Shown here: one piece after another, positions 12,655-28,106 of the stretch
How the letters are laid out: every line of letters starts with the position of its first letter
How positions within the stretch are numbered: the first letter of the stretch is position 1
From: a virus
Strand: one strand, 5' to 3'
DNA: 28,581 bases
IMG/VR virus record: IMGVR_UViG_3300008111_000216
Span: 1-28,581 of that record
The notes under the pieces: model-generated
Database searches by the model: none
What the model saw: only the letters and a program-made list of their open reading frames with translations
What the model was told of the DNA's origin: nothing
Position numbers and translations under genes: made by a program

Positions 12655-12660
12655 CAAATA

Positions 12661-12669: not shown

Positions 12670-12675
12670 ATATAT

Positions 12676-13395: not shown

Positions 13396-13397
13396 AT

Positions 13398-13802
13398 TTA
13401 TTTCTTTTTAGATCTTATCTTTGCAAGCTCTTCAAAGTCTTTAACCTTAGTTTCTCCAAGGTATCCCCAGGCGTAACCATCAGCAATCATTTGCTCATTT
13501 ACAGAAACTGTTGATCCGTCTAGATACAACCATCCTAAGATTCTTCCGTACTTTTCTGAAGAATCCATTTTTTCTGTTTTAATAACAACTTCTTTAGCGT
13601 CTTTAATCTTAGACTTAACATACTCTTTTGCTTCAAGACCTAAAGCTTTTTCAATCTTATCTTTTGTTCTACTTTCTGGGGTATCGATGCCCGCAAGCCT
13701 GACTCTTGAACTAAATGATATATCAAAACCAAGATCAATCTCTACGTCTATTGTATCTCCGTCTACTACATTAGTTACTTTTTTTACGTGATATTCATAC
13801 AT
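13398..13802 (-). CDS. Thermonuclease (SNase family)
   Basis: 134 residues from ATG 13802 (GGAAGG upstream); a longer frame from 13850 would overlap the upstream gene more and lacks a good ribosome binding site. Catalytic residues Arg35, Asp40 and Glu43 lie in RVRLAGIDTPE and Arg87 in KYGR, the same numbers as in mature staphylococcal nuclease. Asp14, Gly15, Asp16 and Thr17 match the first metal-site loop. No signal peptide, so it acts in the cytoplasm, perhaps in degrading host DNA or recycling nucleotides. Overlaps the second oxygenase by 8 nt. Confidence 0.9.
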   Translation of the reverse strand: MYEYHVKKVTNVVDGDTIDVEIDLGFDISFSSRVRLAGIDTPESRTKDKIEKALGLEAKEYVKSKIKDAKEVVIKTEKMDSSEKYGRILGWLYLDGSTVSVNEQMIADGYAWGYLGETKVKDFEELAKIRSKKK

Positions 13803-14559
13803 TGTTCGGGTGCCTTCCTGGGAAAATTTTTGAATTTCCTGGTATATCATACCAAGATCTCTTAGTCCAAAAAAGAGAAAGGGTATGTCTTACTCCCTCT
13901 GTTATCTCACGAACACCATGAAGATGTTTTGAGTCTCCTTTAAATGAAATAAGCATTCCTGGCTCTGGTTGAATTTCAAAATCATATTGTGGCATGTAAA
14001 GAGAGCCTCCTACATAATCACTATTAAAATAAAGTAAGCTTGAGTAATGTTTATCAAAAAATGTTTTTCCAAACTTTTCTGCGCTCTCAGGCCATATTCT
14101 GTAGTTAGCTAGCTCTTCCCAATCGTAATCCTCTTCAGGATCAAAGTAATCTATGTGTGGCTCTTGAAGTCTACCGACTCTCCATCTGTGAAGTCCAGAT
14201 AGCTGTACCAAAAGTTTTTGATTAAATTGCTCTTCAGCCGTAGCTTGCATTCTTTTTTCTATATCAAATACAAGGTCTAAAGGAAAATTTGGGTACATGG
14301 CACGAGATTTAGGAATATCTGTTGTTCCTATTGTCATGCCATCCCAAACATCTTTTCTGCCTGTAGGATTACTACCCGTAATTTCTTTTTGATCTCTTTT
14401 TAAATTTTTATATCTTTGAATTCTTCTTTCTGCATCAAAGATATTCCAATCTGATTCATTAAGAGAGCATAGTGCAGAGTTAATTACATTAACCTCTTCT
14501 TGGCTAATGTAATTCCTTATAATGTGTACGTCAGGTATTTTAGTTTCTAAAATTTCCAT
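13795..14559 (-). CDS. 2OG-Fe(II) oxygenase, second copy
   Basis: 254 residues. His135 and Asp137 (PHIDY), His214 (HLHGV) and Arg224 (EGVRHT) give the 2OG-oxygenase active site, with LLYFNSDYVGGSLYMP between. It shares this organisation with the 12676 gene but is only distantly similar overall. The N-terminal 100 residues are different and basic. It starts 3 nt after the endolysin stop and overlaps the thermonuclease, so it belongs to the lysis-nuclease transcript. Substrate unknown; virion protein or DNA are possibilities. Confidence 0.85.
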   Translation of the reverse strand: MEILETKIPDVHIIRNYISQEEVNVINSALCSLNESDWNIFDAERRIQRYKNLKRDQKEITGSNPTGRKDVWDGMTIGTTDIPKSRAMYPNFPLDLVFDIEKRMQATAEEQFNQKLLVQLSGLHRWRVGRLQEPHIDYFDPEEDYDWEELANYRIWPESAEKFGKTFFDKHYSSLLYFNSDYVGGSLYMPQYDFEIQPEPGMLISFKGDSKHLHGVREITEGVRHTLSLFWTKRSWYDIPGNSKIFPGRHPNNV

Positions 14560-14561
14560 GA

Positions 14562-15128
14562 CTACTTTTTCTTGACTGCCGCCTTCTTTACAGGAGCCGC
14601 TTTCTTTGCGGGAGCCTTTGCTGCTGGAACTGGTGCATCCCAGTCTGGTCTAGCTACTGACATGACCAAGCTGTATGCTCTCTTCTTAAGGAATACGCCA
14701 TCTCCATTAGCCTGTGATCCCTTTGCGTTTCCACTAGTATTTCCTTCGTAGCAGTGCAAATTCTTTCCATCATTCTTAACAACAATTCCAACATGCTCTG
14801 TATCTGTTGGTGTCTTATCAAAGTTAAAGAATACTACGTCTCCTGCTTGTGCTTGTCCGATAGGAACAATTCTCTTGTTCTTAGCAAACCACTGTGCTCC
14901 TGCATCGCATGACGCAAAGCCTTTCTTTGTTGAAGCTGCAACTAGATGAACTAGTCCTGCGTCATCAAAGCATCCTGAAACAAACATTGCACACCAAGGC
15001 TGGTGATTCATTCCGTATCGCTTTCCAAAAATTGTATCGTTATTTGGTCCTTCTGAGTAGCCTTCATCAGCATACTTCTTTGCTGCAGCTACAACTTTGG
15101 CTGCATTTGGGTGTATATTGTTTGACAT
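14562..15128 (-). CDS. Endolysin with CHAP domain
   Basis: 188 residues. CHAP amidase/endopeptidase catalytic residues: Cys46 in PWCAMFV, His112 in EHVGIV and Glu128/Asn130 in CYEGNTS. A short N-terminal segment precedes the domain. The C-terminus is a Lys/Ala/Pro-rich tail of about 25 residues that may bind the anionic cell wall. It would cleave peptidoglycan cross-links or the amide bond at lysis. The promoter at 15155-15163 and an AAAGGAGG ribosome binding site suggest strong late expression. Lies downstream of the holin-like genes. Confidence 0.9.
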   Translation of the reverse strand: MSNNIHPNAAKVVAAAKKYADEGYSEGPNNDTIFGKRYGMNHQPWCAMFVSGCFDDAGLVHLVAASTKKGFASCDAGAQWFAKNKRIVPIGQAQAGDVVFFNFDKTPTDTEHVGIVVKNDGKNLHCYEGNTSGNAKGSQANGDGVFLKKRAYSLVMSVARPDWDAPVPAAKAPAKKAAPVKKAAVKKK

Positions 15129-15154
15129 TTAAGTCCTCCTTTAAGGTTATATGT

Positions 15155-15163
15155 AGTATAGCA
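15155..15163 (-). promoter_or_regulatory. Extended -10 promoter of the endolysin gene
   Basis: TGCTATACT on the minus strand; the leader is about 20 nt and contains AAAGGAGG. No clear -35 box. Confidence 0.6.
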
Positions 15164-15164
15164 T

Positions 15165-15452
15165 TTATTTTGCTTTTTTGTCTACCGCTGAAAATGCTGC
15201 ATTAATTTCTGCCACAGTCAGCTTGCCGTCATCCAGGAAGCCTCTTGCTAGTCTTTCAACTACAGTTGCTACTCCTAAAGTTCCTGCCAATATTACTGCC
15301 TTATAGGTTTCAATTCCTACCACTGCACCTGCTCCAATTACGGACAATCCTGATGCTGCAAATACTGCAATTATTCTCATAAGAATATTATTTATGCTTG
15401 CAATTGCTCCTGATCCTACTTGTGTTGGCTCTTCAATATATGCCTTTGCCAT
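15165..15452 (-). CDS. Holin-like membrane protein
   Basis: Ninety-five residues with two hydrophobic segments (about 25-48 and 51-66), a short turn between them and a charged C-terminus. It sits directly before the endolysin gene with an AAGGAGG ribosome binding site, the usual position for a class II holin. The C-terminal part (LDDGKLTVAEINAAFSAVD) resembles an EF-hand-like helix also found in some actinophage holins. It would time lysis by permeabilising the membrane. Confidence 0.75.
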   Translation of the reverse strand: MAKAYIEEPTQVGSGAIASINNILMRIIAVFAASGLSVIGAGAVVGIETYKAVILAGTLGVATVVERLARGFLDDGKLTVAEINAAFSAVDKKAK

Positions 15453-15454
15453 TT

Positions 15455-15634
15455 TTATTCCTCCTTATTTCTTATTGGACTTGTAATTATCCAAAGAGCA
15501 GTCGTTGCCATAATGCCATAACCGACAATAGTCTTTGCACTTCCGTCCAGAACTACCCAAGCAATAAACATTCCAAGAAGGGTCCATGCTTGGTCAACCA
15601 TATCCTTTAGGATATTCTTTATTATTCTTACCAT
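15455..15634 (-). CDS. Second small holin-like membrane protein
   Basis: Fifty-nine residues: amphipathic N-terminus (MVRIIKNILKDMVDQ), then two membrane segments (about 16-32 and 36-52) and a charged end. ATG 15634 overlaps the end of the PA14 gene, behind AAGGAGGAAG. Two adjacent small membrane proteins before an endolysin suggest a holin/antiholin or pinholin pair; which is which cannot be told from the sequence. Confidence 0.65.
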   Translation of the reverse strand: MVRIIKNILKDMVDQAWTLLGMFIAWVVLDGSAKTIVGYGIMATTALWIITSPIRNKEE

Positions 15635-18075
15635 TTTCTTCTTCCTCCTTGACCTGGTGAATTGGCCCCTGAGCCTCCACCAGAACTTCCTCCGCCTGTG
15701 CCACCTCCAGTGGCTCCTCCTGTTGCTGCTCCCACTGCATTAATAGCAGCACCTGCTGCAACAACTGTAGCGACAACCATATCTGTTGCTTCTTCTCTTT
15801 CTTCTTCAGTCATATCTGCACCAATGCTTCCAAGAGCTGCAATTGCCGCTGCTGGATTAGTAAATAATTCTTCTACCAAAGCTGCTGGATTTTGCACAAG
15901 CTCAACTTGTGCAGCGACAGCTGCAGTAATTATAAGAGCGTTTCCATTTTCATCTGTACGAACTTCAACTGGTGTTGATGGTGGCAGATCTGAATAAGAA
16001 ACTCCTGCTGCTTTAATTTCTTCTGCTGAAATAGATTCTCCTGGAGCAAGATTTTCTATAAGTTTTTCTACTACAACTTCTTTTTGCTCTTCAGTTAGTT
16101 TGCCTTCTTCTGCTGCTTTCTTTAATGCTTCTTCTTCCGCCTTTGCCGCTTCTAATTCTGCAGCTTTTGCTTCAGCTTCCGCTTTTGCATCTGCCGCTTC
16201 TTGTGCTTTAGCTTCTGCTTCTGCTTTAGCATCTGCTTCTTCTTGAGCCTTTGCTTCTGCTTCAGCCTTAGCATCTGCCTCTGCTTGTGCTGCCGCTTCA
16301 GCCTCTGCTTCTAATCTATCTGCTTCCGCTTTTGCATCTGCTTCAGCTTGTTCTTTAGCTTCTTGTTCTGCTTGCGCTGCTGCTTCTTCTGCTGCTATAC
16401 GATCAGCCTCTGCTTTAGCAGCGGCTTCTTCTGCGGCTACACGGTCTGCTTCAGCCTTAGCTGCCGCTTCTTCTGCGGCTTTAGCTTCTGCTTCTGCTTT
16501 TGCTGCAGCTTCCGCTGCTGCCTTGGCTTCTGCTTCTGCTTTTGCTGCAGCTTCCGCTGCTGCTTTTGCATCTGCTTCTGCTTTAACTCTTGCTGCTTCT
16601 GCAGCTGCCGCTTGTGCAGCGGCTCTTTGTGCAGCGGCTTCCGCTGCTGCTGCTTCTTGTGCTGCTTGGGCTGCTGCAGCCTCTGCTGCAGCATTTGCAG
16701 CGGCTTGTGCTGCTGCTTGTTGCTCTGCATAATAATTAACTGTAACCTGTGCTGCATTTGTCATTGCAGTTACTGCTTCATTTACTTTTGTTGTTGCTGT
16801 ATTAGCAAGGGTGTCTGCTGTTTGAACTGCTACTGTAGCAGTTTCTGTAAGCTGATTTAATGTTGCAACTTCAGCTGCTTTGACTTCTGTTTTATCCACA
16901 ACTACTGCTTCTGCTGCAGTCTTTTGTGTAGTAAGAGTATTAAGAACTGCAGTATCATTATTAAGTGTTGTCTGTGCAGTAGCAACTGCAGCAACTAATA
17001 CTGGATCTTTTGTCACTGTTGTAGTTGCAAATGCTTCATTGACTGGGGTAGTAAAGTAGCCAGTTCCGTTTTCTCTTGTTATCGCCCAGCCAAGTATGAC
17101 GGCTGATCCTCCACCATTTTCATAGTACCAAATAGTAAAGTCCTGTTGTTTATCTGTAGTTGTGTTATAGGTTGGGGAATATTGACTCCACCCCCCGCCC
17201 TTATCAATCCATTCATTAATTGCAAGTTGTCCATCAACATACATCTTTGCGCCATCATCTGAATGAATTGCATACCTTACTGATACTGCTTCTTCTGGAA
17301 CGGTAATCTTTCCTTCAAACTTAACAATTACATTGTCTACTCTGCCAGAGTTAAATACCTGTCCGCTTCCAAATTGGTGAGCAATATAAGGAACTGTTGT
17401 AGTTGAAAGTGGTGTTGCATTTTCTGCTGGCATTGGTGGCTGCTGCCCACCAGGAGATGCGTAAGTTGTTACCTGAATTCCATTAGTTGTAGTTGTAACG
17501 GCTGAAGCATCCGCAGCAGCCTGTGCTGTAGCAAGGTTTGTAGTGTCTGTTGCAACTACAGCAGTCTGAGACTCAACCTGTTGAGTTACTGTATTTAAAT
17601 TTGTTTGAGCATTATTTAGATTTGTTGTCGCTGTAGCAACTACTGCAGTTTGTGATTCAACTGCTGCTTGGGCTGTTTCTGCTACTGCTACTGCAGTCTC
17701 AGCAGACTGTATTGCATTGTTAGCATCCTGAACTTTGACTGTAGCCTCTGCAACCGCAGTTGCAATTGGCTCTTGAGTTGTAGCAATTTGAGTAGCAGTT
17801 TGAGTGTCTGTGTTTGGGACATTTGCTTGAATTGTAGATATGATCGTATTTGCCTGTGTTTGAGCTGCCGCCTGTAGCGTTGTTTCTGCCGCCTCTATTT
17901 TATTTGCAACTATCTCAACTGTAACAGGAGTGGTTGCTGTGGCGGTATCTGAAGATGGGTTTGCTGGTGTTACCTGAACAGTAACTTCTTCAGCATGTGC
18001 ATTGCTTGGTCCAAAAAGAAAGAGCCAGCCGATTATAAAAAGGCTGGTTAAAAAATACTGTAACTTTCTAGTCAA
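15628..18075 (-). CDS. Large secreted PA14-domain coiled-coil protein
   Basis: 815 residues. Signal peptide (1-28, GPSNAHA cleavage); Thr/Ala/Gln-rich helical region (30-195); PA14 domain (about 205-335: IHSDDGAKMYVDGQLAINEW, then WYYENGGGSAVILGW), a beta-barrel that often binds glycans; a long Ala/Glu/Lys coiled coil (about 350-665); a small alpha/beta segment; and a Gly/Ser-rich end. The TTG start at 18075 has a TTAGGAG ribosome binding site. It could be an exported adhesin, or a tail fibre in which the hydrophobic start is not a signal. It resembles host surface proteins more than known fibres. Next to the lysis genes and downstream of tail-type proteins. Confidence 0.75.
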   Translation of the reverse strand: MTRKLQYFLTSLFIIGWLFLFGPSNAHAEEVTVQVTPANPSSDTATATTPVTVEIVANKIEAAETTLQAAAQTQANTIISTIQANVPNTDTQTATQIATTQEPIATAVAEATVKVQDANNAIQSAETAVAVAETAQAAVESQTAVVATATTNLNNAQTNLNTVTQQVESQTAVVATDTTNLATAQAAADASAVTTTTNGIQVTTYASPGGQQPPMPAENATPLSTTTVPYIAHQFGSGQVFNSGRVDNVIVKFEGKITVPEEAVSVRYAIHSDDGAKMYVDGQLAINEWIDKGGGWSQYSPTYNTTTDKQQDFTIWYYENGGGSAVILGWAITRENGTGYFTTPVNEAFATTTVTKDPVLVAAVATAQTTLNNDTAVLNTLTTQKTAAEAVVVDKTEVKAAEVATLNQLTETATVAVQTADTLANTATTKVNEAVTAMTNAAQVTVNYYAEQQAAAQAAANAAAEAAAAQAAQEAAAAEAAAQRAAAQAAAAEAARVKAEADAKAAAEAAAKAEAEAKAAAEAAAKAEAEAKAAEEAAAKAEADRVAAEEAAAKAEADRIAAEEAAAQAEQEAKEQAEADAKAEADRLEAEAEAAAQAEADAKAEAEAKAQEEADAKAEAEAKAQEAADAKAEAEAKAAELEAAKAEEEALKKAAEEGKLTEEQKEVVVEKLIENLAPGESISAEEIKAAGVSYSDLPPSTPVEVRTDENGNALIITAAVAAQVELVQNPAALVEELFTNPAAAIAALGSIGADMTEEEREEATDMVVATVVAAGAAINAVGAATGGATGGGTGGGSSGGGSGANSPGQGGRRKW

Positions 18076-18086
18076 CTAGGTATCTC

Positions 18087-18116
18087 CTAAGTAATGCAAT
18101 ATCTTTGCTTACTTAG
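18087..18116 (-). promoter_or_regulatory. Hairpin in the 5' leader of the PA14 gene
   Basis: Twelve base pairs (CTAAG-type arms TTACTTAG/CTAAGTAA plus GCAA/TTGC) with one bulged base and a 5-nt loop. The 3' arm on the transcript runs straight into the AGGAG ribosome binding site, so the fold could affect initiation. Confidence 0.65.
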
Positions 18117-18118
18117 TA

Positions 18119-18127
18119 ATTATACCA
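18119..18127 (-). promoter_or_regulatory. Extended -10 promoter of the PA14 gene
   Basis: TGGTATAAT on the minus strand, with a weak TTTAAT at -35. The leader is about 37 nt. Confidence 0.65.
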
Positions 18128-18155
18128 GATGTGTTAGTTTAATTAAACCTTATTA

Positions 18156-18626
18156 TTAAGCAGTTATGTAAGTACCATTAACATAAATTTTGCTAATAGT
18201 AGTTAGTGTTACTGGAGTTCCTTGCAAAAACAATCCTTCTCTAATCGGAGAATTAGCACCGCCTGCTGACTTAAGATAATGAAGATCTAATACATCAGTA
18301 ACTCCTGACGTATCAGCATTAACAATTGTATGACCAGTTCCAGTGTCTGGATCAACATTAGGATCGGCCCATGCCCAGCCAGAAAAATGATTAAAACCAA
18401 CAGCAGGAGTAAATGGTAGTTGTAACTTATATTGTCCAGTTCCAAAATTAGTAACTGTGGTGAAATCAACTTGAATTGCAAAACTAACTAATTTTCCTGC
18501 TTTAACGTAATAAGAATTATATGTTGGATATGTAGCGCCTGTTCCAGTAAACGCTAGGCCAGTTGCTGTAAAGTTTGGTGACCATCTTACTGCCTGCCCA
18601 CCTACTGCATCGCTTACATGTATCAT
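18156..18626 (-). CDS. Tail-type beta-structured protein (putative receptor-binding or minor tail)
   Basis: 156 residues, almost all beta, with the pattern RWSPNFTATGLAFTGTGATYPTYNSYYVKAGKLVSFAIQVDF and GTGQYKLQLPFTP. This is a common phage domain in which a two-layer beta sandwich is found at the ends of tail fibres or on capsid fibres. It overlaps the upstream gene by 4 nt (ATGA). The role in host recognition is inferred from the domain type and from the adjacent small structural-type protein. Confidence 0.65.
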   Translation of the reverse strand: MIHVSDAVGGQAVRWSPNFTATGLAFTGTGATYPTYNSYYVKAGKLVSFAIQVDFTTVTNFGTGQYKLQLPFTPAVGFNHFSGWAWADPNVDPDTGTGHTIVNADTSGVTDVLDLHYLKSAGGANSPIREGLFLQGTPVTLTTISKIYVNGTYITA

Positions 18627-18892
18627 GCTTTCTCCAAAATAAATACTGCTACGGTTACTCCTGAATCGCCCACTGCAAAAACTTGATCATCTGAGCCCAA
18701 ATCTATAGAAAAGCTTTGACCTGGGAAAAGCTTATGCCCATATCCTGATGTCGTAACTGATTGATTGCCAATGTATGCGTATCCGCTATCTGATGTATTT
18801 TGAACCGATAATGAATTTGGCGTATCTATCATATCATCAATAGTAAGCTCTTGTGCTGTACCGTTTAAAGTTAAATTACGTGTTCTTAGCAT
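18623..18892 (-). CDS. Small structural-type protein (fibre/decoration)
   Basis: Eighty-nine residues, beta-rich and polar: LTLNGTAQELTIDD, SLSVQNTSDSGYAYIGNQSVTTSGYGHKLFPGQSFSIDL. This is the pattern of small phage head-fibre or tail accessory proteins that display beta strands around a Gly-rich loop. Read from the promoter at 18927-18955 through a hairpin leader with TTAGGAG. Coupled to the 18156 gene. Confidence 0.6.
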   Translation of the reverse strand: MLRTRNLTLNGTAQELTIDDMIDTPNSLSVQNTSDSGYAYIGNQSVTTSGYGHKLFPGQSFSIDLGSDDQVFAVGDSGVTVAVFILEKA

Positions 18893-18904
18893 ATTTACTC
18901 CTAA

Positions 18905-18919
18905 TAGGGGTTTACCCTA
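18905..18919 (-). promoter_or_regulatory. Hairpin in the 5' leader of the 18892 gene
   Basis: TAGGG/CCCTA, 5 bp with a 4-5-nt loop. It begins at the expected mRNA 5' end and is followed by TTAGGAG. Confidence 0.45.
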
Positions 18920-18926
18920 GATATAC

Positions 18927-18955
18927 ATTATACCTTACTTAGGATTATCTGTCTT
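18927..18955 (-). promoter_or_regulatory. Promoter of the structural-type gene pair
   Basis: Minus strand: AAGACA (18955-18950), a 17-bp spacer and TATAAT (18932-18927), partly inside the end of the FmdB-like gene. Confidence 0.6.
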
Positions 18956-19123
18956 ATAAAAGCCATTACCTTTAAACTGGATTCCAAAGGGGGTGAAGTG
19001 TCTTATCATATCCGCTTCACATTCTTCACACAGGTAACCTGGATCATCTTCTGAGATTGATCTGGTCACTGCAAGTGTTGCATGTGCATCATCTTGACTA
19101 CACTTGTATTCATATACTGGCAT
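18935..19123 (-). CDS. FmdB-like zinc-ribbon protein
   Basis: Sixty-two residues from ATG 19123, which overlaps the upstream stop (TAATG); a longer in-frame start lies inside the monooxygenase gene and is rejected. MPVYEYKC at the start, CEEC (32-35) in the middle and FKGNGFYKTD at the end match the FmdB family of small putative regulators. The first Cys pair is broken: Cys8 is followed by SQD instead of xxC, so zinc binding may use a nearby His or be lost. Its place behind the monooxygenase gene may be incidental. Confidence 0.75.
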   Translation of the reverse strand: MPVYEYKCSQDDAHATLAVTRSISEDDPGYLCEECEADMIRHFTPFGIQFKGNGFYKTDNPK

Positions 19124-19905
19124 TATAAAACTCCCTGTACTCTTTTTACCATCTTGTGTAGTCTGTATAGCTGATTGTCCCACACGCTATCTGAAATAAG
19201 TATATCTGTTATTCCTAAAAGACTAAGCTTTTTTAATTTTTCTAAAACAGCATCTTCAGTGCCGTATACCATAGAGTTACGCATCATGTAATTCTTTTCT
19301 TGGTTGGCTACCGCCCTTGCTTCTTCGTTGGTATCACGTATTATGACTATGGTTGAGGCCATTTTTCTTTTTGTATTTACCTTAAACCCCTCTTTATATG
19401 TTGATAGCATAGCCAGGTGAATGTCTGCATACTTTTCTGAGTTTTCAATTGTTTTTTCAGAAGTTCCGCTTATCACAATGCCTGGCTTTTTTACTAACAT
19501 GGGGTGATTGATAAATTTTTCTATCCACTCTGTTGTATATAAAACTCTTTGATCTTTAGTTCTCATTTGATCTGATATGAATACCATGTTGTTTATACTA
19601 TCTTCATCTTCTTTCATATCTCCCGCCGCAATATTTAGCATCACTCTGTCTTTATCTATTTCATGAAAAGAATGCATCATCATTGCACAGAGCTCTGGGC
19701 TGACTGCATATGTTCTAATTGCAAACATATATTTAAATGAATGAGTCTTGTCTATAATATTTGCTACCTTGATCATATGATCTGGCAAAAGAGAATGGTA
19801 CACAAGCAAAATTGATTTGTACCCTGCATCGTTTACTGTGTTGGATAACCTTTTGAGTGAAACTAAATCACTGTCATCCCTAACTGACATCCAATGCAGG
19901 TCCAT
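19123..19905 (-). CDS. Luciferase-like (SsuD-type) flavin monooxygenase
   Basis: 260 residues from ATG 19905, chosen because it has TTAGGGAAG upstream and MDLHWMS aligns with the first strand of SsuD-like proteins; an in-frame ATG at 19956 would add 17 residues from the structured leader. The segments KYMFAIRTYAVSPELCAMMMHSF, DRVMLNIAAGD and PGIVISGTSEKTIENSEKYADIHL follow bacterial luciferase-family alkanesulfonate monooxygenases, which use reduced flavin and oxygen. It is shorter than SsuD (about 380), so the substrate may differ. A possible metabolic gene for sulfur scavenging (inference). Ends on the FmdB-like start (TAATG). Confidence 0.75.
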   Translation of the reverse strand: MDLHWMSVRDDSDLVSLKRLSNTVNDAGYKSILLVYHSLLPDHMIKVANIIDKTHSFKYMFAIRTYAVSPELCAMMMHSFHEIDKDRVMLNIAAGDMKEDEDSINNMVFISDQMRTKDQRVLYTTEWIEKFINHPMLVKKPGIVISGTSEKTIENSEKYADIHLAMLSTYKEGFKVNTKRKMASTIVIIRDTNEEARAVANQEKNYMMRNSMVYGTEDAVLEKLKKLSLLGITDILISDSVWDNQLYRLHKMVKRVQGVL

Positions 19906-20005
19906 AACTTCCCTAACTAATAATAGAGAGCAGTTTGAGGACTTACTCAGGTCCATCCTGCGGGTAACGGCCCGCTATCTGCGACTCCTCAGTGACGAGG
20001 TGCAG
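19906..20005 (-). ncRNA. Structured GC-rich 5' leader of the monooxygenase gene (riboswitch-like candidate)
   Basis: About 100 nt from the predicted start (near 20005) to ATG 19905. Three stems on the minus strand: P1 CTGC/GCAG with inner CCTC/GAGG (20005-19979), P2 GCGGG/CCCGC with a 6-nt loop (19975-19960), P3 GGAC/GTCC with an 8-nt loop (19954-19939). The 19939-20005 part is far more GC-rich than its surroundings. The ribosome binding site lies 3' of the stems. It matches no riboswitch consensus I remember. Confidence 0.5.
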
Positions 20006-20011
20006 ACTATT

Positions 20012-20017
20012 ATTATA
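20012..20017 (-). promoter_or_regulatory. -10 box for the structured leader
   Basis: TATAAT on the minus strand, directly after the hsp20 stop codon. The predicted start about 7 nt on coincides with the first base of stem P1. The -35 region (AGACAA-like) is weak. Confidence 0.5.
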
Positions 20018-20515
20018 CTATTTCTTAGTTCTTTTTGTCTTTGTTGCAGCTTCTTCTTCGGCAAGATCTCTTAAATCTCCAAAGCTATCCTCTGCATCAA
20101 AATCATGAATATCGAACTTGACTGGTCTTTCACTTTCTGGAATATACTTAGTCAGTCCTACCATAAGGATTCCGTCTAAAATAAATACAGAATTTACCTT
20201 TACATATTCTGCAAGAGAAAATGTTTTAACAAATGAACGTGCACCGATTCCCTTATAAAGATATTCTTTATTTGGATCCTCGTGTGAAGAGCCCTTAATT
20301 GTTAGAACATTCTTGTCTTGTTCTACCTCAATATCTTCTTTCTTGAAGCCAGCCAGGGCTAGCTCAATCACATACATTTCATCTGGGCCTTTAACCTTAG
20401 ATATGTTATGTGGTGGATAGTTTGAAGTATTTCTGTGTATATTTTGTAGATCTTTAATTTGGCGATCAAAACCAATAAAAAATGGATCATTAAAAAAATC
20501 CAGTGTTGTTACCAT
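20018..20515 (-). CDS. Small heat-shock protein (Hsp20/alpha-crystallin)
   Basis: 165 residues. N-terminal arm (1-50), alpha-crystallin domain (about 50-135) with YVIELALAGFKKEDIEVEQDKNVLTIKG, SFVKTFSLAEYV and VFILDGILMVGL (the usual A-x-x-x-n-G-v-L strand in modified form), then a charged tail ending KTKRTKK. It would hold unfolded proteins in the cytoplasm without ATP, perhaps assisting virion assembly; Hsp20 genes are known from cyanophages and some other large phages. AAAGGGGA ribosome binding site. Confidence 0.9.
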   Translation of the reverse strand: MVTTLDFFNDPFFIGFDRQIKDLQNIHRNTSNYPPHNISKVKGPDEMYVIELALAGFKKEDIEVEQDKNVLTIKGSSHEDPNKEYLYKGIGARSFVKTFSLAEYVKVNSVFILDGILMVGLTKYIPESERPVKFDIHDFDAEDSFGDLRDLAEEEAATKTKRTKK

Positions 20516-20544
20516 TTTATTCCCCTTTCAAGCGAATAATTTAA

Positions 20545-20571
20545 TATAGACCCTCTATTGAGCGATCTATA
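20545..20571 (-). promoter_or_regulatory. Leader hairpin of the hsp20 gene
   Basis: TATAGA/TCTATA, 6 bp with a 15-nt loop, right at the predicted 5' end. It does not pair with the ribosome binding site, so a thermometer role is not supported. Confidence 0.4.
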
Positions 20572-20575
20572 TATA

Positions 20576-20604
20576 ATTATAGCAAAATATTTTTAGCTTG
20601 TCTA
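20576..20604 (-). promoter_or_regulatory. Promoter of hsp20
   Basis: Minus strand: TAGACA (20604-20599), a 17-bp spacer ending in TGC, and TATAAT (20581-20576). It lies just past the tRNA-Arg 3' end. Confidence 0.75.
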
Positions 20605-20605
20605 C

Positions 20606-20680
20606 TGGTACCCCTGGCAGGAATCGAACCTGCGGCCAACAGATTAGAAGTCTGTTGCTCTTCCGCTGAGCTACAAGGGT
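20606..20680 (-). tRNA. tRNA-Arg (anticodon UCU), CCA encoded
   Basis: A full cloverleaf on the minus strand: acceptor ACCCTTG/CAGGGGT (one T-G pair), D-stem GCTC/GAGC, anticodon stem ACAGA/TCTGT with loop CTTCTAA (anticodon TCT), T-arm GCAGG-TTCGATT-CCTGC, discriminator A and CCA in the DNA (20608-20606). It reads AGA, a codon frequent in this AT-rich sequence and often rare in actinobacterial hosts. Confidence 0.93.
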
Positions 20681-20681
20681 A

Positions 20682-20725
20682 TGGCTGGGGATGCAGGCAT
20701 CGATCCTGCGATGAGCTAATCCCCA
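20682..20725 (-). other. tRNA-like minihelix (acceptor plus T-arm) with encoded CCA
   Basis: Minus strand: a perfect 7-bp acceptor TGGGGAT/ATCCCCA, a 9-nt connector TAGCTCATC, T-arm GCAGG-ATCGATG-CCTGC, then G and CCA. D and anticodon arms are missing. U1-A72, G73 and CCA recall tRNA-Gln. The stop codon TAG of the upstream gene lies in the connector, and the CCA ends 1 nt before the tRNA-Arg gene begins. Either a decayed tRNA or a working processing signal. Confidence 0.7.
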
Positions 20726-21003
20726 TCGTTGTGACTTAGTCCTATGTCTTTTAGCAGATTTTCTGCTTCTGGAGTGTAAGAAATAATAGCCTCTAGGTTT
20801 TCATTATATTCAACACTTATTAAGTTTTTATTATATAAATCAACCAATGCCTGGTCTATAAATTTTACATGGGCTTCCCACAAATCAGGTGCCAGATCCT
20901 TTGCTTTTTCGGTAACAGAAAATAATATTTCTCCGTCTTTATCGACTCCGCTAATATCTATAGCACCGATCTCAATATAGTAATCCATATCGTTAGGTTC
21001 CAT
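20716..21003 (-). CDS. Hypothetical acidic protein between tRNA genes
   Basis: Ninety-five residues, acidic. The start MDYYIEIGAIDISGVDKDGEILFSVTEKAKDLAPDLWEAHVKF has the pattern of small phage proteins with a strand pair followed by winged-helix-like helices, but I know no function. It follows the CAU tRNA with AGGAGG as ribosome binding site a few bases after the tRNA end, and its last codons (GAT GGG GAT TAG) form the 5' strand of the tRNA-like element. tRNA processing on both sides would free this mRNA. Confidence 0.75.
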   Translation of the reverse strand: MEPNDMDYYIEIGAIDISGVDKDGEILFSVTEKAKDLAPDLWEAHVKFIDQALVDLYNKNLISVEYNENLEAIISYTPEAENLLKDIGLSHNDGD

Positions 21004-21014
21004 TTTTCCTCCTG

Positions 21015-21088
21015 TGCAACAAGTAGGACTTGAACCTACGATTACCGAATTATGAGTTCGGGGCTTTAACCAACTAAGCTATTGTTGC
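21015..21088 (-). tRNA. tRNA with anticodon CAU (Met or lysidine-type Ile)
   Basis: Minus strand: acceptor GCAACAA/TTGTTGC, D-arm GCTTAGTTGGTTAAAGC, anticodon stem CCGAA/TTCGG with loop CTCATAA, T-arm GTAGG-TTCAAGT-CCTAC, discriminator A. CCA is not encoded. The anticodon CAU could be elongator Met or Ile2; the sequence does not decide. Read from the promoter at 21099-21127 and overlapping the carbamoyltransferase stop codon by 23 nt. Confidence 0.9.
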
Positions 21089-22559
21089 CTGTTAGTATAT
21101 TATATCCATAATGTGCCTGCCAGTCAATAGCATCTTGATGATCATTTAGTAAGGGTTGGCCCTTTATGTTTAAACTAGTATTTAATAAAATTGGAACACC
21201 AGTTTGTAAATAAAACTTATTTAATACTCTCCATAAACCTCTATGCTGATCCCTATTGACTGTTTGAACTCTTGATGTTCCGTCTTCGTGAACAACGGAA
21301 GGGATTAAGTCTGGCTTTAAGCACTTAACCGTGTACTGCATATATGGAGAAGCGAAGTCCATGTCAAACCATTTAGATGCACACTCTTCCATAACTACTG
21401 GGGCAAACGGACGGAACAACTCTCTTTGTTTAATTAGATTTACTTTATCTTTAATATTAGGATCTCTTGGGTCTGCAAGGATACTTCTGTTTCCCAAAGC
21501 TCTTGGGCCGTACTCCGCTCTTCCTGAAGCAACCGCAACAATTCCATCTTTTAATATGCTATCAACTATTTGTTGTACTGGGTAATCTCCTCCCATATCG
21601 TATCCTAAATATGGAGTCTTCCACTCTAAATGCTTTCCATATAATGCTGCAGCTGCACCCAGCGAGCTACCAGCATCTCCTGGATTTGGCATAATCCAGA
21701 CGTCCTTAAATATATCCCACAATGATGTGTTAGCCTTACTATTTAAAGCACATCCTCCCATAAAAACTAAATTACTTTTTCTTGTAATTACTTTAGCGTA
21801 ACGCATATACTCAATAAGTCTTTTTTCATATACCTTTTGAACTGCTGCAGCTAAATCAAATTTTCTTTGCTCAAACCACTGGCCTATATATCCAGTGCCT
21901 TCTTGTCCTGCAAAGCATGGCACATAACCCCAGTCAAAATCTGTTATCCCAGTATGAAAATTATATTTTTGCTTATTGTATTTAGGGAAATATTCATTTA
22001 CCTGATCAAAATATCTATCTGGATTTCCATATGCAGCCATCCCCATCATTATGTACTCTTCTTGGTTTGGCATTAATCCTAAAAATTTTGTAAATGCTGA
22101 ATAAAATAACCCAAAGCTAAACGGATAGTTGTCCTGATGAACCATTTTAATCTTTTCGCCTTCTCCGACCCAGATTGTTGATGTGTTATATTCACCAATA
22201 GCATCCAATACTACAATTACTGCATCTGTAAACTTGCTAGTATAATAGCCAGCACAGGCATGTGAGTAATGGTGGCTAAAAGATTTTCTTGGAACACCTG
22301 GCAGGTTGAATCTTGGTCTCCAGTCTCCAGCACCGCCCTTTAGAAATAGCCTGGAGGCCTTTAGAAGGGGTTTCTCATAGTAGGCTATAGCATCAGGTGA
22401 GCCATACGACAGTGCGTCTTTAACAAGGCTGTCATTAACGTACCAATCATTTTTTTCTTTACTGTATCTTTCTGCATGGCCCGCAAAGAGTATCTCTCCA
22501 TCTTTAATTAAAGATACAGAAGCATCGTGAGAAGTTTCATTAACTCCTAAAATAATCAT
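21066..22559 (-). CDS. NodU/TobZ-family O-carbamoyltransferase
   Basis: 497 residues from ATG 22559 (ATGA overlap with the upstream gene); a start six codons earlier is less likely. N-terminal YrdC/Kae1-like part: MIILGVNETSHDAS, HHYSHA (96-101, metal-binding His) and the DAIGEYNTS loop. C-terminal part with GPRALGNRS (351-359) and RELFRPFAPV, the family signature. These enzymes transfer a carbamoyl group from carbamoyl phosphate through carbamoyl-adenylate to a hydroxyl group of an antibiotic, Nod factor or, in some phages, a modified nucleobase. Its co-cistronic partners are the two SGNH-like genes. The last codons and the TAA lie inside the tRNA(CAU) gene. Confidence 0.9.
   Translation of the reverse strand: MIILGVNETSHDASVSLIKDGEILFAGHAERYSKEKNDWYVNDSLVKDALSYGSPDAIAYYEKPLLKASRLFLKGGAGDWRPRFNLPGVPRKSFSHHYSHACAGYYTSKFTDAVIVVLDAIGEYNTSTIWVGEGEKIKMVHQDNYPFSFGLFYSAFTKFLGLMPNQEEYIMMGMAAYGNPDRYFDQVNEYFPKYNKQKYNFHTGITDFDWGYVPCFAGQEGTGYIGQWFEQRKFDLAAAVQKVYEKRLIEYMRYAKVITRKSNLVFMGGCALNSKANTSLWDIFKDVWIMPNPGDAGSSLGAAAALYGKHLEWKTPYLGYDMGGDYPVQQIVDSILKDGIVAVASGRAEYGPRALGNRSILADPRDPNIKDKVNLIKQRELFRPFAPVVMEECASKWFDMDFASPYMQYTVKCLKPDLIPSVVHEDGTSRVQTVNRDQHRGLWRVLNKFYLQTGVPILLNTSLNIKGQPLLNDHQDAIDWQAHYGYNILTGNNSLVG
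21099..21127 (-). promoter_or_regulatory. Promoter for the tRNA cluster, inside the carbamoyltransferase gene
   Basis: Minus strand: TTGACT (21127-21122), a 17-bp spacer and TATAAT (21104-21099). The expected start is 3-5 nt before the tRNA 5' end. Confidence 0.8.
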
Positions 22560-23554
22560 TTTACTACCCCACCCCATCTATTTTTCATTTCAGATAAAAC
22601 TTTTTCCGCTACGTGTATGTTCCTGTGTGAACCCCAGTGTGGTGTGCTGGTTGCAACCTTTCCAATATCTTTGGCATGATTAAAAAACACCACGTCCTCA
22701 GACTCTAAATCCTTATGGCAACCCGAAGCATCTAAAATATCCTTTTTATTTTTATCCAAATACCAACTCCAAACTGGTATATGAAAATAGCTTTGGTGAT
22801 CCTTATTATTTTTTTGTAAATCTGCTATAAAATCCATTACGCTATATGAGTTACTCCAACAGGACCACATAAATTTAATACCTGCATTCTCGCAATATTG
22901 CTCAAGCATTAAAAGCATTTGCATATTTATAAAATATGCTGATTGCGGATTCATTACATCTTCTATTGCGTATGGTGCTTTTGCGTATATAGGTGTAAAT
23001 ACATCAACAGTAGCAATCTGCAATGGAGAAAAATCAACATCTTCTGTTTCTGTTTTCTTAAACTTTTTATAATATTCTGCCCAGTCCCATTTAGTTATTG
23101 TGTTTGGGTCTGGAATAAACTCAATTCTTTCAAATGGTGGCAGCATACAATAAATATATTTTGGGTTTCCAAACTCCTTTATATATGCAAATGTTGAACG
23201 AACAACAGATCCTACTGAGTTGCCCTCATAAGCAATATTATGAACTGTTCCCAAAAAATTATCTTCTACAATATCTGAAAATCTATATTCTTTTGGCAAG
23301 GATGTGCCCCATGTTTGAGAGCATCCGTTTATCAGTAAGTCTGCTGCTTCAAAAAAATCCTTGTCTCTGAATCCATAGTTATTTAAAGAGTAGTTAATAC
23401 CCTCTTTATTCCATTCTTTAAACAACTTGCTAACTGTTGGAGCTCTATTAACAAATATTTGATTCTCTAATTTGTTTGAAGAAATAGCTTCGGCTGTTCT
23501 TTTGCCATCCTTGATATCCCAATCAATATACTTTTTACCGCCTTGATTATCCAT
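22556..23554 (-). CDS. SGNH-hydrolase-like protein A
   Basis: 332 residues. Block I is INGCSQTWGTS, with candidate nucleophile Ser79; LLINGCSQTWG is preceded by a strand as in SGNH/GDSL enzymes. A C-terminal HWGSHRNIHVAEKV holds the candidate catalytic His. The middle has IYCMLPPFERIEF, a typical strand end. Such proteins act as esterases or O-acetyl transfer/removal enzymes on glycans and other molecules. It starts 8 nt inside its paralogue at 23547 and overlaps the carbamoyltransferase start, so the three are co-translated. Confidence 0.75.
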   Translation of the reverse strand: MDNQGGKKYIDWDIKDGKRTAEAISSNKLENQIFVNRAPTVSKLFKEWNKEGINYSLNNYGFRDKDFFEAADLLINGCSQTWGTSLPKEYRFSDIVEDNFLGTVHNIAYEGNSVGSVVRSTFAYIKEFGNPKYIYCMLPPFERIEFIPDPNTITKWDWAEYYKKFKKTETEDVDFSPLQIATVDVFTPIYAKAPYAIEDVMNPQSAYFINMQMLLMLEQYCENAGIKFMWSCWSNSYSVMDFIADLQKNNKDHQSYFHIPVWSWYLDKNKKDILDASGCHKDLESEDVVFFNHAKDIGKVATSTPHWGSHRNIHVAEKVLSEMKNRWGGVVK

Positions 23555-24551
23555 TTAAAGTCTCCTCATAAAATTTTTCTGCGATATGAATGCTTGCGTG
23601 TGCACCTATGTGAGGGTTTTTGTGTTGATCGTAATCGTTTGCTATTTCCCAAAACATCCTATAGCCTGTGTTATTTGCGAGATCTTGATGACAATCAGGG
23701 TGGTCACCGCTAAAAGTTTTTTCGCTAAACCACCTAGAATCTATAGAAGTATAGCCTTTATAGTATTCATTTTGATTAGCAATCTCTTTGAAGAATAAAC
23801 TTTCATCTGGGTCCCAAAATCCATATCTTAAAAATATATTAGACTGATTGCAATATTGCTCAAGTAGTCTTAGTGACATTAAAGATTGATCATAAGCAAT
23901 TTCTTCTGTGATAATTTCTTGTAAGATTAAAGGCAATTTATAAAATTTAGCATGCAGTTCGGGATTAACGCTGCCGTCAATTAATATGTCATTGTTATGT
24001 GTTTCTTTAGATACCATAACTTCTGGAGTTCTTGGCAGCCTAAATCTCCAGAGTGGTGGCAAAAGAATAAATAATTTTTCTGGGTGACCAATTTCTTTAA
24101 AGTAAGCAAAAACTATTTCAACAATTCCTCTTACCGACTTACCTGGCTGCCCTAAATTATCTACATCTTTTGCGTTCAACTTTTCTTTTAAAATGTTTGG
24201 CCAGATTAGGGAGTCTGGAAGCCCAGTCCCCCATGTTTGTGAGCATCCTGCAACTAAAATCTCGGCAGGACTACCCTGAATAAAATTTTTACCTCTGTAT
24301 AATTTTCTATTTATAGAATAGTTTTCTTGGCTAAAAAGGCTGTAGTCTGGATGGTTCTTATAGAAAATTTTATTTTTTAATTTATCTAGATAGTATTCTT
24401 CTTTAGCTTGGCCCCATAGGTTAGGCTTATATGCATGCTTCTGAGAAAGATTTTGAAGACTAGGATATAGAAAATTATTTCTTTGACTGCTGCTATAAAA
24501 GGTATCGGCTTTTCCTAATAGGGCGTCTCTAAATCTATTTTTTAGATTCAT
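23547..24551 (-). CDS. SGNH-hydrolase-like protein B
   Basis: 334 residues, paralogous to protein A: AGCSQTWGTG (candidate Ser104), FILLPPLWRFRLP and the C-terminal HIGAHASIHIAEKF. About 60 residues precede the shared core and are not similar. Gene duplication followed by divergence is the simplest explanation; the two may form a heterodimer or act on two positions of one substrate. The start ATG overlaps the stop of the preceding mini-gene (TAATG). Confidence 0.75.
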   Translation of the reverse strand: MNLKNRFRDALLGKADTFYSSSQRNNFLYPSLQNLSQKHAYKPNLWGQAKEEYYLDKLKNKIFYKNHPDYSLFSQENYSINRKLYRGKNFIQGSPAEILVAGCSQTWGTGLPDSLIWPNILKEKLNAKDVDNLGQPGKSVRGIVEIVFAYFKEIGHPEKLFILLPPLWRFRLPRTPEVMVSKETHNNDILIDGSVNPELHAKFYKLPLILQEIITEEIAYDQSLMSLRLLEQYCNQSNIFLRYGFWDPDESLFFKEIANQNEYYKGYTSIDSRWFSEKTFSGDHPDCHQDLANNTGYRMFWEIANDYDQHKNPHIGAHASIHIAEKFYEETLNG

Positions 24552-24643
24552 TAGTAAATATAATCTCCATTTTTTCTAATTCTTTTTTTACTCTTTTTTC
24601 TGTATAAGTATACGTATAAGCTGTAAAAAATATTCTTAATCAT
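24551..24643 (-). CDS. Basic mini-protein, 30 residues (tentative)
   Basis: ATG 24643 lies inside the end of the zinc protein gene (ATGATTAA), and the TAA overlaps the ATG of SGNH protein B. The peptide is Tyr- and Lys/Arg-rich (YSLYVYLYRKKSKKRIRK). Perfect coupling on both sides supports translation, perhaps only to carry ribosomes across the gap. Confidence 0.4.
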   Translation of the reverse strand: MIKNIFYSLYVYLYRKKSKKRIRKNGDYIY

Positions 24644-24866
24644 TAACTGAACCTTCAACTATTTGCTGTACATATTCTGAAAAATGCTTTCTAATATTAC
24701 CCATAGGTCTATGTCCAGCAGCCTTCCAGATTCTTTTATATTCAATTACATTGCTGAAAGTTGTTGGGCACAAAACTAATCCGTTGTATTCCTTTAATAC
24801 CGTTGGAAGAGGAACATGCTTTCCACAACACTTACATTCTTTAGCTTTCTCTTGATAAGTACTCAT
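24636..24866 (-). CDS. Conserved zinc-finger-like protein next to the terminase
   Basis: Seventy-six residues. CKCCGKHVPLP at the start (Cys11, Cys13, Cys14, His17) and Cys33 in LVLCPTTF suggest a metal site; the rest is helical and basic. Small Cys-rich proteins of this type commonly sit beside actinophage terminase genes; some resemble the start of HNH proteins, but no HNH motif is present. It overlaps the terminase end by 4 nt. Confidence 0.65.
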   Translation of the reverse strand: MSTYQEKAKECKCCGKHVPLPTVLKEYNGLVLCPTTFSNVIEYKRIWKAAGHRPMGNIRKHFSEYVQQIVEGSVND

Positions 24867-26665
24867 ATTATCATCATCCTGTCCATTGCGTCTCTTAAGT
24901 TTTCTGGCATTCTTGGAGCCCTAATCATATTATATGAGCTAGTTTCTCCGTCATCTTTTGTTCCAAAATCGTTGTCATAGCTCATAGATTCATATGTATG
25001 CACATTGATCTCTTCGCTTGTATCAAATTTACTTCTACTAATAGCATTGTAAATAGCTCCACAAACTGCATCCGCCAAGTCTTTAGAGCCTTTTCGTGGG
25101 TGGTCAACTCTATCTCTCATTATTTTAAGCTGAAGTAATTCATCTATAAGCAACTGTATGTGGGGCCCAGATAGTCTTTCTTCAGCCACAATCATTGCCA
25201 TATCGTCATAATGTTTTTTAGCGACAGATAGAATCTCTGTATTGATGCCGTATTGTTTTAGTTGTTGCATCATATCATGAGAGTTCCATCTGTCAAAAGT
25301 ACAAACCTTTATCTTAAACCCACGTGTTCTTAATGATAATATATAATCTTTTACTTCTGTAAAGTCTACGGACTTATCTGCTGTAGGGGTCCAGAATCTA
25401 ACAGCATCAATTTCAACCAAGGGTGCTGGTTGAGAATAGCTATCTGTAACTTTAATATTAACCCATTTGTTTACGTGCCCCATTGCAACTGCACAATGGT
25501 CATGCTTTTGTGCTAGGTCTACGTGTAAGAAATATTCCTTGTCTGGATCTGGAATAAACCAATCTTCAAGTCTGCCAAATTTATCTACCGCAAGATGTCC
25601 TTTATTAAAAGCCTTCTCCACCTTTTCTCTTGATTTAAAGAATGCATCGACAGCATCTGGTGGCATGCAAGCAAATCTAGATAATGCATCTAGTGGGTTT
25701 GTAAAAAAAGCTACCTTAAAATCATCAATCGTTCTAACTGGGTTTATCTCCCAAGTGGGACGCTTAAGAGCGTATACTTTTGGAATCTTATATGAAACAA
25801 TATGATCTTCTTCCCACTCTACGCTAAACTCATTTCCCTCTGTTCCATCTGGAAGATCTTCATCCATTTTAAACTTATGATCACGAATAACAGTTTCTTT
25901 TTCTGCCACAACCGCATTGTATCTTTGTTGAATATAATCATTCTTATATCTAGGAAATGACAGCAATATAACCTTGCCGAAGTCTGGAAAGCGAGAGTCT
26001 ACTGATGCACGGTACATGTCATATATAGCTGCACCTGTCTTTGCTTGCTCGTGGCCAGTTGTATTGTCTATTGCAAAGCCAGAAATCTCATCGAGGATAA
26101 CAACAATTACGTTGTATCCTTCCCAAGCCTCACGCTCTGAGTGACCTGAGTGTACTGTAATGGCTTTATCAAATTTAACTTCTGAAGCCTTATCGTTATA
26201 CTTACCTGCGAACCAAGGTGACTTATCGATACGTGTTTTAAATCCCTTAAAGAATACGTTGCTTGCCTGCTGAGAGTTAATAGCAATGTTAATAATGTCA
26301 ATGCTATCTCCTGGAGGTTTTCCATAATATGTTGCTGGATCTTTGAGGCATAGTAAAAGATATACAATGTATGCTACTGCAATTGTCGAACAATAATCTT
26401 TTCCAGAACCTTTTCCAAGCTGAGCAACAACTTCGTTAGCGGTCTGCTTAAATCTTATTTTTCCTTCTTGTTCTCCAAATAACTTGACGAGGGTTGACTC
26501 TTTGTAGATCTGCGAACTTTTTTCAATAAGCGTGTACTGGTAGTCGGAAAGTTCTGGAAGCCCAAGGTATTCTGGACTTCTAACAAACGTTCTAAGATCG
26601 ACTGGTTTTTCATCAAACTCCTCACCATCGAGCATGTCGATAAGGTCATTAAAATCAAACGACAT
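24863..26665 (-). CDS. terL: Terminase large subunit
   Basis: 600 residues. ATPase part with Walker A-like QLGKGSGKD (82-90) and Walker B VIVVILDEI (Asp192, Glu193); the coupling segment follows around 215-240. Nuclease part (RNase H-like) with first Asp383 in FLHVDLAQKHDH, second acid about 457 in CTFDRW and third in KDLADAV near 555. It packages DNA into the prohead and cuts concatemers, with the small subunit encoded just upstream (11-nt overlap). Length is usual for the family. The mechanism of end formation cannot be told. Confidence 0.95.
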   Translation of the reverse strand: MSFDFNDLIDMLDGEEFDEKPVDLRTFVRSPEYLGLPELSDYQYTLIEKSSQIYKESTLVKLFGEQEGKIRFKQTANEVVAQLGKGSGKDYCSTIAVAYIVYLLLCLKDPATYYGKPPGDSIDIINIAINSQQASNVFFKGFKTRIDKSPWFAGKYNDKASEVKFDKAITVHSGHSEREAWEGYNVIVVILDEISGFAIDNTTGHEQAKTGAAIYDMYRASVDSRFPDFGKVILLSFPRYKNDYIQQRYNAVVAEKETVIRDHKFKMDEDLPDGTEGNEFSVEWEEDHIVSYKIPKVYALKRPTWEINPVRTIDDFKVAFFTNPLDALSRFACMPPDAVDAFFKSREKVEKAFNKGHLAVDKFGRLEDWFIPDPDKEYFLHVDLAQKHDHCAVAMGHVNKWVNIKVTDSYSQPAPLVEIDAVRFWTPTADKSVDFTEVKDYILSLRTRGFKIKVCTFDRWNSHDMMQQLKQYGINTEILSVAKKHYDDMAMIVAEERLSGPHIQLLIDELLQLKIMRDRVDHPRKGSKDLADAVCGAIYNAISRSKFDTSEEINVHTYESMSYDNDFGTKDDGETSSYNMIRAPRMPENLRDAMDRMMII

Positions 26666-27191
26666 CGGATGCCTCTACTGGCACTGATTCGATTACTCCA
26701 GTTATCTGAGACAATCTTTTTGCAACATCCATCTTGCACTTAGGACATGTTGAGGTTACTTCCTTTAAAATTTTAACAAGGACCTCTTGCTTGCGCTCTG
26801 TTTCTGCAATTTGAGATGCTATTTCATTATTTTCAAGAACACCTATAGACTGCAACATTGCAATCCTTTTAGTTTCAATATCTGCAATAAGCTTTAGTGC
26901 GCCAGACTTAATTCCTAGCTGACCAGACGTATCTGCATCTTCAACTGTCTTCCACGCTTCTTTGATAAGCATTGCATAATGTTGGTCAGCACCAGATATA
27001 GCTTCTCTAGCACGATCTCTTATGTTGTTGTCATTATGAACGACATCTTTCCAGTCGTCAATTAACTCTAATACTTCTTTGCGCTGGATACCAGTAATTG
27101 TGGCGATTTGGGTAGGAGTACTTCCTTTAAGAAGTTCTTCAACAACCCTATTCATTCTATCAAAATGCTGTGATAATTCTATTTCGCTCAT
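26655..27191 (-). CDS. terS: Terminase small subunit (putative)
   Basis: 178 residues. An N-terminal helix-turn-helix (about 26-50: TPTQIATITGIQRKEVLELIDDW) is followed by a long helical part (60-145) and a CPKC pair near the C-terminus. HTH plus oligomerisation helices, with an overlap to the large subunit, fits a terminase small subunit that recognises the packaging site. The CPKC element is an unusual addition. Read from a leaderless promoter with a palindromic spacer. Confidence 0.8.
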   Translation of the reverse strand: MSEIELSQHFDRMNRVVEELLKGSTPTQIATITGIQRKEVLELIDDWKDVVHNDNNIRDRAREAISGADQHYAMLIKEAWKTVEDADTSGQLGIKSGALKLIADIETKRIAMLQSIGVLENNEIASQIAETERKQEVLVKILKEVTSTCPKCKMDVAKRLSQITGVIESVPVEASDVV

Positions 27192-27197
27192 TAATCT

Positions 27198-27226
27198 ATT
27201 GTACTTTTAGTCGACTAAAATGTCAA
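27198..27226 (-). promoter_or_regulatory. Leaderless promoter of the terminase genes with a perfect palindromic spacer
   Basis: Minus strand: TTGACA (27226-27221), a 17-bp spacer and TACAAT (27203-27198), then 6 nt to ATG 27191. The spacer holds TTTTAGTCGACTAAAA (27205-27220), a perfect 16-bp palindrome and an obvious operator candidate. Confidence 0.8.
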
Positions 27227-27555
27227 TTAGAATTAGCCTTAGCAATCTTAAGAAGAATTAAATAGCCTATCATGTCATCAATATCATTATCTCCAGCAAA
27301 GCCAGACCCATTCTTAATTCTATTTATCTTGTCATCAATACGAATCTTAATCTGCTCTTGATTATCCGCCTGCGAAAATATTCTAATTGGAGATAAGGCT
27401 GAGTCTCCGTAAGATATATTCTTTTCAATTAGCATCTGTGCCACCTCAAGACACTGGGTAATAATCTTATTTCCAGATGGTGCGTCTGTTGCCATTAGCT
27501 GTAAATCAGTTACCCATAACTGAAAACCATTTTGTTTATTTGGATATCCAAACAT
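27223..27555 (-). CDS. DUF1599 / nucleotide-modification-associated domain 1 protein
   Basis: 110 residues. NISYGDSALSP (47-57), RIDDKINRIKNG (72-83) and DNDIDDMIGYLILLKIA (89-105) are the family marks. The fold is related to MazG-type all-helical nucleotide pyrophosphatases, and the family (Nmad1) was named for its frequent linkage to nucleotide-modification genes in phages. Its biochemical role is not established. It overlaps the methyltransferase gene by 1 nt. Confidence 0.75.
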   Translation of the reverse strand: MFGYPNKQNGFQLWVTDLQLMATDAPSGNKIITQCLEVAQMLIEKNISYGDSALSPIRIFSQADNQEQIKIRIDDKINRIKNGSGFAGDNDIDDMIGYLILLKIAKANSN

Positions 27556-28106
27556 TATTCCGCCTTTTTGTTTAGTGTTGCAATAAAATGATCATCAATA
27601 GGGTTATTGGGATCTTTTGAATACTCTATGGTGTCTATTGTAAAATATTTTTCAACAATTGGCAACACCTGTGATGCAGAATGATCAATCCATGTTCGGC
27701 TATGAAGTACAAGCCTGTCCACTATTTGAGACAAATCTTTTAGATATGAGTTTAACTCCGCATCATCTATATGCTGAAATACAAGACTAGCTAATGCTAA
27801 ATTAAACTTAAACCCTTTTACGTAGTCCCAGTCGGTGGTATAGGATATATTATTTAATTTGTTTTCTTGTGGCACTAAACCTATCATGCTTGGGAGATCA
27901 AATGCAATAACCTTGTCATATGTTTCTGCAAGAGCTACGGAGTTTCTTCCGACCCCACATCCAAAATCTAATGCGGTCTCTCCATTTCCAAACAAAGATT
28001 TAATCTCATCATATACTGGCATATCTTTAAGTGGTCCACTGTATCCAGTAAGAATTAGATCTCCAGCTGTTTCTTTATTGGCGCCTAGCCATACGTCTTT
28101 GCTCAT
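27555..28106 (-). CDS. Class I SAM-dependent methyltransferase
   Basis: 183 residues. Motif I ALDFGCGVGRNSVAL (45-59), acidic end of strand 2 IAFDLP (72-77), and motif IV region LALASLVFQHI. No DNA-methylase (D/N)PPY motif, so small-molecule, protein or tailoring methylation is more likely than classical base methylation. It starts ATGA-coupled to the HTH protein and overlaps the Nmad1 gene. Confidence 0.8.
   Translation of the reverse strand: MSKDVWLGANKETAGDLILTGYSGPLKDMPVYDEIKSLFGNGETALDFGCGVGRNSVALAETYDKVIAFDLPSMIGLVPQENKLNNISYTTDWDYVKGFKFNLALASLVFQHIDDAELNSYLKDLSQIVDRLVLHSRTWIDHSASQVLPIVEKYFTIDTIEYSKDPNNPIDDHFIATLNKKAE

Follow-up and report, generated by a model that had tools for sequence, protein, structure and literature searches.

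A phage tRNA-Asn(GUU) gene probably reduced to its acceptor and T arms by a single 32-nucleotide deletion

The DNA examined in this study, which we call the window, is a viral stretch of 28,581 nucleotides (IMG/VR record IMGVR_UViG_3300008111_000216). On its minus strand, an intact tRNA-Met(CAU) gene (21014..21088; identified by ARAGORN, and by Rfam RF00005 at 21015-21088 with 72.7 bits) lies upstream of an open reading frame (ORF) for 95 amino acids (20716..21003, from the ORF list), which runs into a 44-nt tRNA-like element (20682..20725). Downstream of this element is an intact tRNA-Arg(UCU) gene (20606..20680; identified by ARAGORN, and by RF00005 at 20609-20680 with 73.6 bits). A gene for a Nol-like carbamoyltransferase (21066-22577) and an Hsp20 gene (20018-20515) flank the tRNA genes. 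No Pfam or PHROGs family was found for the product of the 95-aa ORF at an E value of 0.001.

Read on the minus strand from 20725 to 20682, the element is composed of the acceptor 5' strand UGGGGAU, a 9-nt linker (UAGCUCAUC), the T arm (GCAGG AUCGAUG CCUGC), the acceptor 3' strand AUCCCCA, the discriminator G, and an encoded CCA. All seven pairs of the acceptor stem and all five pairs of the T-stem are formed, the T-loop has seven nucleotides, and neither a D arm nor an anticodon arm is present; this architecture, described in an earlier sequence-only reading, was thus confirmed. The linker corresponds to U8, A9, GCUC and A, together with UC from a variable loop. Also as had been described, the 95-aa ORF has its final codons and its TAG stop in the 5' strand of the element. 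The 3' end was said to touch tRNA-Arg(UCU); the two are indeed adjacent, but a single base (20681) intervenes, so that they nearly touch. Neither ARAGORN nor Rfam at its gathering cut-off called the element, and the only calls in the window were tRNA-Arg(UCU) and tRNA-Met(CAU). The element thus falls outside functional tRNAs in the sense of RF00005, namely those with D, anticodon and T arms and with a covariance-model score above the gathering cut-off.

When IMG/VR was searched with the 95-aa protein, the best 80 of 137 confirmed loci were inspected; in all 80, up to 150 bases past the protein match were read and submitted to ARAGORN, the stretches being shorter in L002, L006, L013 and L073 because the contigs end there. 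All of the 15 loci with a protein identity of 81-100% (L001-L015) were found to have an intact 76-nt tRNA-Asn(GUU) gene at the same place and with the same flanking bases. In these loci, the 95-aa ORF runs into tRNA-Asn, which is followed by one base and then by tRNA-Arg, the last being truncated in L002, L006 and L013, where the contig stops, and interrupted in L003. Bases 8-10 of tRNA-Asn serve as the TAG stop for the ORF, and the resulting 10-base overlap between protein gene and tRNA gene is common to all 15. The remaining 65 of the 80 loci have a protein identity of at most 67%; tRNA-Arg(UCU) was present in six of them (L016, L053, L054, L057, L071, and L072), and no tRNA was called in the stretch read in the other 59. 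In L016, a tRNA-Asn gene is located farther downstream, beyond tRNA-Arg, tRNA-Leu and tRNA-Lys.

Compared with the intact gene of L001-L015, the element lacks 32 consecutive nucleotides (bases 15-46 in linear count), and the other 44 of 44 are unchanged. With the arms assigned by eye and the anticodon placed at base 34 according to ARAGORN, the missing bases comprise seven of the eight in the D loop, the 3' strand of the D-stem, base 26, the whole anticodon arm, and three nucleotides of the variable loop. The reading frame of the 95-aa ORF is left intact. When the element is set against the intact gene and against G001, the closest record, the deletion junction falls at 20711..20712 on the minus strand. 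The break can be placed only after base 14 of tRNA-Asn, and the deletion ends therefore share no base; slippage between direct repeats, considered as the cause, does not, in its simple form, account for the loss. We also considered a split gene with the arms encoded elsewhere, but the exact anticodon-arm and D-arm strings were absent from both strands of the window, which is itself only a fragment.

The intact gene was also retrieved from IMG/VR by scanning for the flanks of the element with a gap of 32-36 nucleotides between them, which returned 24 full-length stretches, each called tRNA-Asn(GUU) by ARAGORN. Nineteen of them are identical over 76 nt and five (L093-L096 and L104) over the first 74, CCA not being encoded in the latter. 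While 15 of the 24 are on the contigs of L001-L015, the nine further contigs (L088, L091, L093-L096, L099, L100, and L104) carry other flanks, and tRNA-Asn is thus found there apart from the overlap with the ORF. The full-length gene is identical among contigs whose adjacent sequences diverge by as much as about 21%, and this points to an intact tRNA that is useful or of recent spread; nothing comparable was seen for the 44-base form. The same scan with a gap of 1-31 nucleotides returned nothing, although it missed the window's own record as well, so that near-identical records may also be missing. As to a cellular source of tRNA-Asn, an exact-pattern scan of genome_contigs with the first 42 or so bases gave no match. 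A DNA similarity search of the phage collection gave 80 records, and the 20 matches listed, which span 3-4% of the query, fall on annotated tRNA genes (14), Hsp20 genes (two) and unannotated DNA (four).

The closest record, the IMG/VR contig G001, is 55,908 bases long and matches window positions 4963-20711 and 20712-28581 without a difference, a total of 23,619 bases; it departs from window 4963-28581 solely by 32 extra nucleotides between 20711 and 20712. Window 20712-28581 is also matched perfectly by two more records, G002 and G003, both with the intact tRNA-Asn gene. Over window 3107-28581, the comparison with G001 reveals no substitution and two deletions, the 32 nt and another of 78 nt following 4962; G001 lacks an equivalent of window 1-3106. 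The 78 nt missing at 4962-4963 are in frame, so that a minus-strand ORF stays open, and the ends of this deletion share one base; an exact IMG/VR scan for the window-type junction at this site returned nothing, and L099 aligns at 84% over the left edge of the longer form seen in G001.

Another gap was noticed close to tRNA-Asn in L003, where 118 nt corresponding to window 20539-20656 are missing at 4379-4380 of that contig (window 20538-20657). The junction of this gap was found in one contig only by an exact scan. The missing stretch takes in 51 of the 75 tRNA-Arg bases as well as some of the leader belonging to the Hsp20-like gene. Ahead of the break, L003 and the window agree throughout save for the tRNA-Asn gap; after it, the identity is 99.5% over 3.9 kb, the sequences are divergent near 16.3-16.6 kb, and the identity is 100% for window 9373-16583. 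Contig L002 stops at exactly the base of this break, and the ends of contigs L002, L006 and L013, all inside tRNA-Arg, are at most one base apart.

A structural scan for a 7-bp acceptor stem, a linker of 1-15 nucleotides, a T arm with G53, T55, C56, R57, A58 and C61, and CCA was run on the window and 120 loci, covering 824,182 bases with overlapping stretches counted repeatedly. Its three matches are all the same element, L081 and L082 being the window's own DNA, and those of the 120 loci that come from other records gave none. Among 200 first-order Markov copies of the window, furthermore, no match was found with CCA required, and three were found when this requirement was dropped. Given no match in the Markov copies with CCA and none in loci of other records, chance is not the explanation of the element. 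A recurrent class of mini-tRNAs was rejected, because the scan of the window and 120 loci met this element alone. Secondary-structure predictions speak against a strongly folded element. Its tRNA-like fold has an energy of -16.7 kcal/mol, compared with -17.2 kcal/mol for the optimum, which is a different fold. For the 45-nt stretch, 10 of 200 shuffled sequences reach or surpass the stability of its optimum (z of -1.87), and the optimum is thus predicted to be only modestly better than that of shuffled sequences.

We consider, with a probability of about 0.93, that the element is a pseudogene of a phage tRNA-Asn(GUU) gene produced by a single internal deletion of 32 nt, be it a real but rare allele or an error of the library or assembly. 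The part responsible for decoding is lost with the anticodon arm, and an intact homologous gene with the same flanks occupies the same locus in L001-L015. It had been supposed that the element might be what was left of a tRNA-Gln gene after a deletion, and the U1-A72 pair and the discriminator G do resemble those of bacterial tRNA-Gln. The idea of a deletion remnant stands, but the anticodon is GUU in 15 of 15 intact genes at the locus and in 24 of 24 full-length matches; a tRNA-Gln parent is refuted by this identity of the intact homologues, and we regard it as almost certainly wrong. Comparison with relatives, as the sequence-only reading had proposed, revealed an intact tRNA at the site, albeit tRNA-Asn instead of tRNA-Gln, and a progressive loss of pairing is not what these relatives show.

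The more serious alternative is that the 32 nt went missing through an error of sequencing, library preparation or assembly and that the phage carries an intact tRNA-Asn gene; here, as in the pseudogene reading, the element derives from tRNA-Asn by shortening. The form was met in one contig, with no others returned, and G001 is otherwise identical over window 4963-28581. Two deletions with no substitution against G001 are also an odd ratio, which may hint at an assembly error. The region could well be prone to such errors, given a tRNA-Asn gene that is the same in contigs whose neighbouring sequences differ by as much as about 21%, three contigs that end inside tRNA-Arg, and the gap of L003 at the end base of L002. 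An overlap misjoin would, nonetheless, normally leave overlapping bases, which the junction at 20711..20712 lacks, and the flanks are identical on both sides of the junction. Also, the 78-nt deletion is in frame and keeps its ORF open, as a real allele would, while chance alone gives this in one of three cases. We thus find an artefact quite conceivable but lean somewhat toward a rare allele of the phage population.

A selected function appears far less probable. According to the sequence-only reading, the element could be a mini-tRNA or a punctuation mark, that is, a minihelix retained to let RNase P part the mRNA from tRNA-Arg and to protect the 3' end of the mRNA. Hairpins of the acceptor and T arms are indeed described as RNase P substrates (PMC11143913), and both stems of the element are complete. 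No other record with the element was found, though, either in the IMG/VR scan with gaps of 1-31 or in the structural scan of the window and 120 loci; the kept bases all equal those of the intact gene, and hence no selection after the deletion is visible. In relatives, moreover, such cuts would already be given by the intact tRNA-Asn, and another fold is predicted to be more stable than the tRNA-like one, which has a 9-nt bulge. A selected punctuation mark is therefore very unlikely in our view, and neither this nor a mini-tRNA finds support at a place where L001-L015 have an intact tRNA-Asn(GUU). The full pairing had been taken as conservation arguing against decay, but it is found in one contig in which all 44 bases equal the intact gene, as would be expected from a recent deletion; complete pairing seen in just one sequence cannot be taken to show conservation. 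Similarly, that the element overlaps the stop codon and lies so near tRNA-Arg is not the design of a mini-element; these features belong to the intact gene, and since they are common to the intact loci, both are most simply older than the deletion.

In the pseudogene reading, the internal deletion of 32 nt, observed as a difference between genes and presumably a single event, would have joined the 5' side of the acceptor to the side of the T arm. From general tRNA biology, a remnant without the anticodon and D arms would be unable to decode, and the function of the gene would be gone. If the remaining hairpin is cotranscribed with the neighbouring genes, RNase P could still cleave it, and such a cut would separate tRNA-Arg from the upstream mRNA much as in the phages with the intact gene. 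By sequence, the element has what a minihelix substrate of RNase P has, namely a 7-bp acceptor stem next to a T arm and a CCA end, with a fold near but not at the predicted optimum. Since RNase P cuts model hairpins of this kind (PMC11143913), residual 5' processing is plausible, but the 9-base bulge and the competing fold make it a tentative prediction. Such processing would be an inherited by-product and not a new function. It is very improbable that the allele is real and is tolerated or favoured because the leftover hairpin keeps the cutting between mRNA and tRNA-Arg while a no-longer-useful tRNA-Asn is dropped; if so, this would be a natural minihelix in the act of turning into a processing signal. 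By itself, the element is of little weight, as it looks like an ordinary tRNA gene recently broken by one deletion, or like an assembly slip, and not like a new kind of RNA. If confirmed by reads, it would be a clean natural deletion, telling us that the phage can occur with the tRNA-Asn at this place broken.

Among known systems, the closest is the tRNA-Asn(GUU) gene of uncultivated phages in IMG/VR (for example IMGVR_UViG_3300042691_008053), which shares the position, the flanking bases and 44 of 44 kept bases with the element; the window differs in that 32 internal nucleotides are missing, and with them the D arm and the anticodon arm. The tRNA cluster of phage CBA120 is described as including a degenerate tRNA of undetermined specificity (PMC3184105), and further precedents may exist in print. 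As in the window, a broken tRNA gene is found there beside working phage tRNA genes, whereas for the window one can name both the gene of origin and the precise bases deleted, in contrast to that degenerate tRNA as it is described. In model hairpins reported to be cut by RNase P (PMC11143913), the acceptor stem, T-stem and T-loop are combined in a single hairpin as in the element, which differs from the substrates described there in the 9-nt linker bulge between its 5' strands and in that its cutting by RNase P is a prediction.
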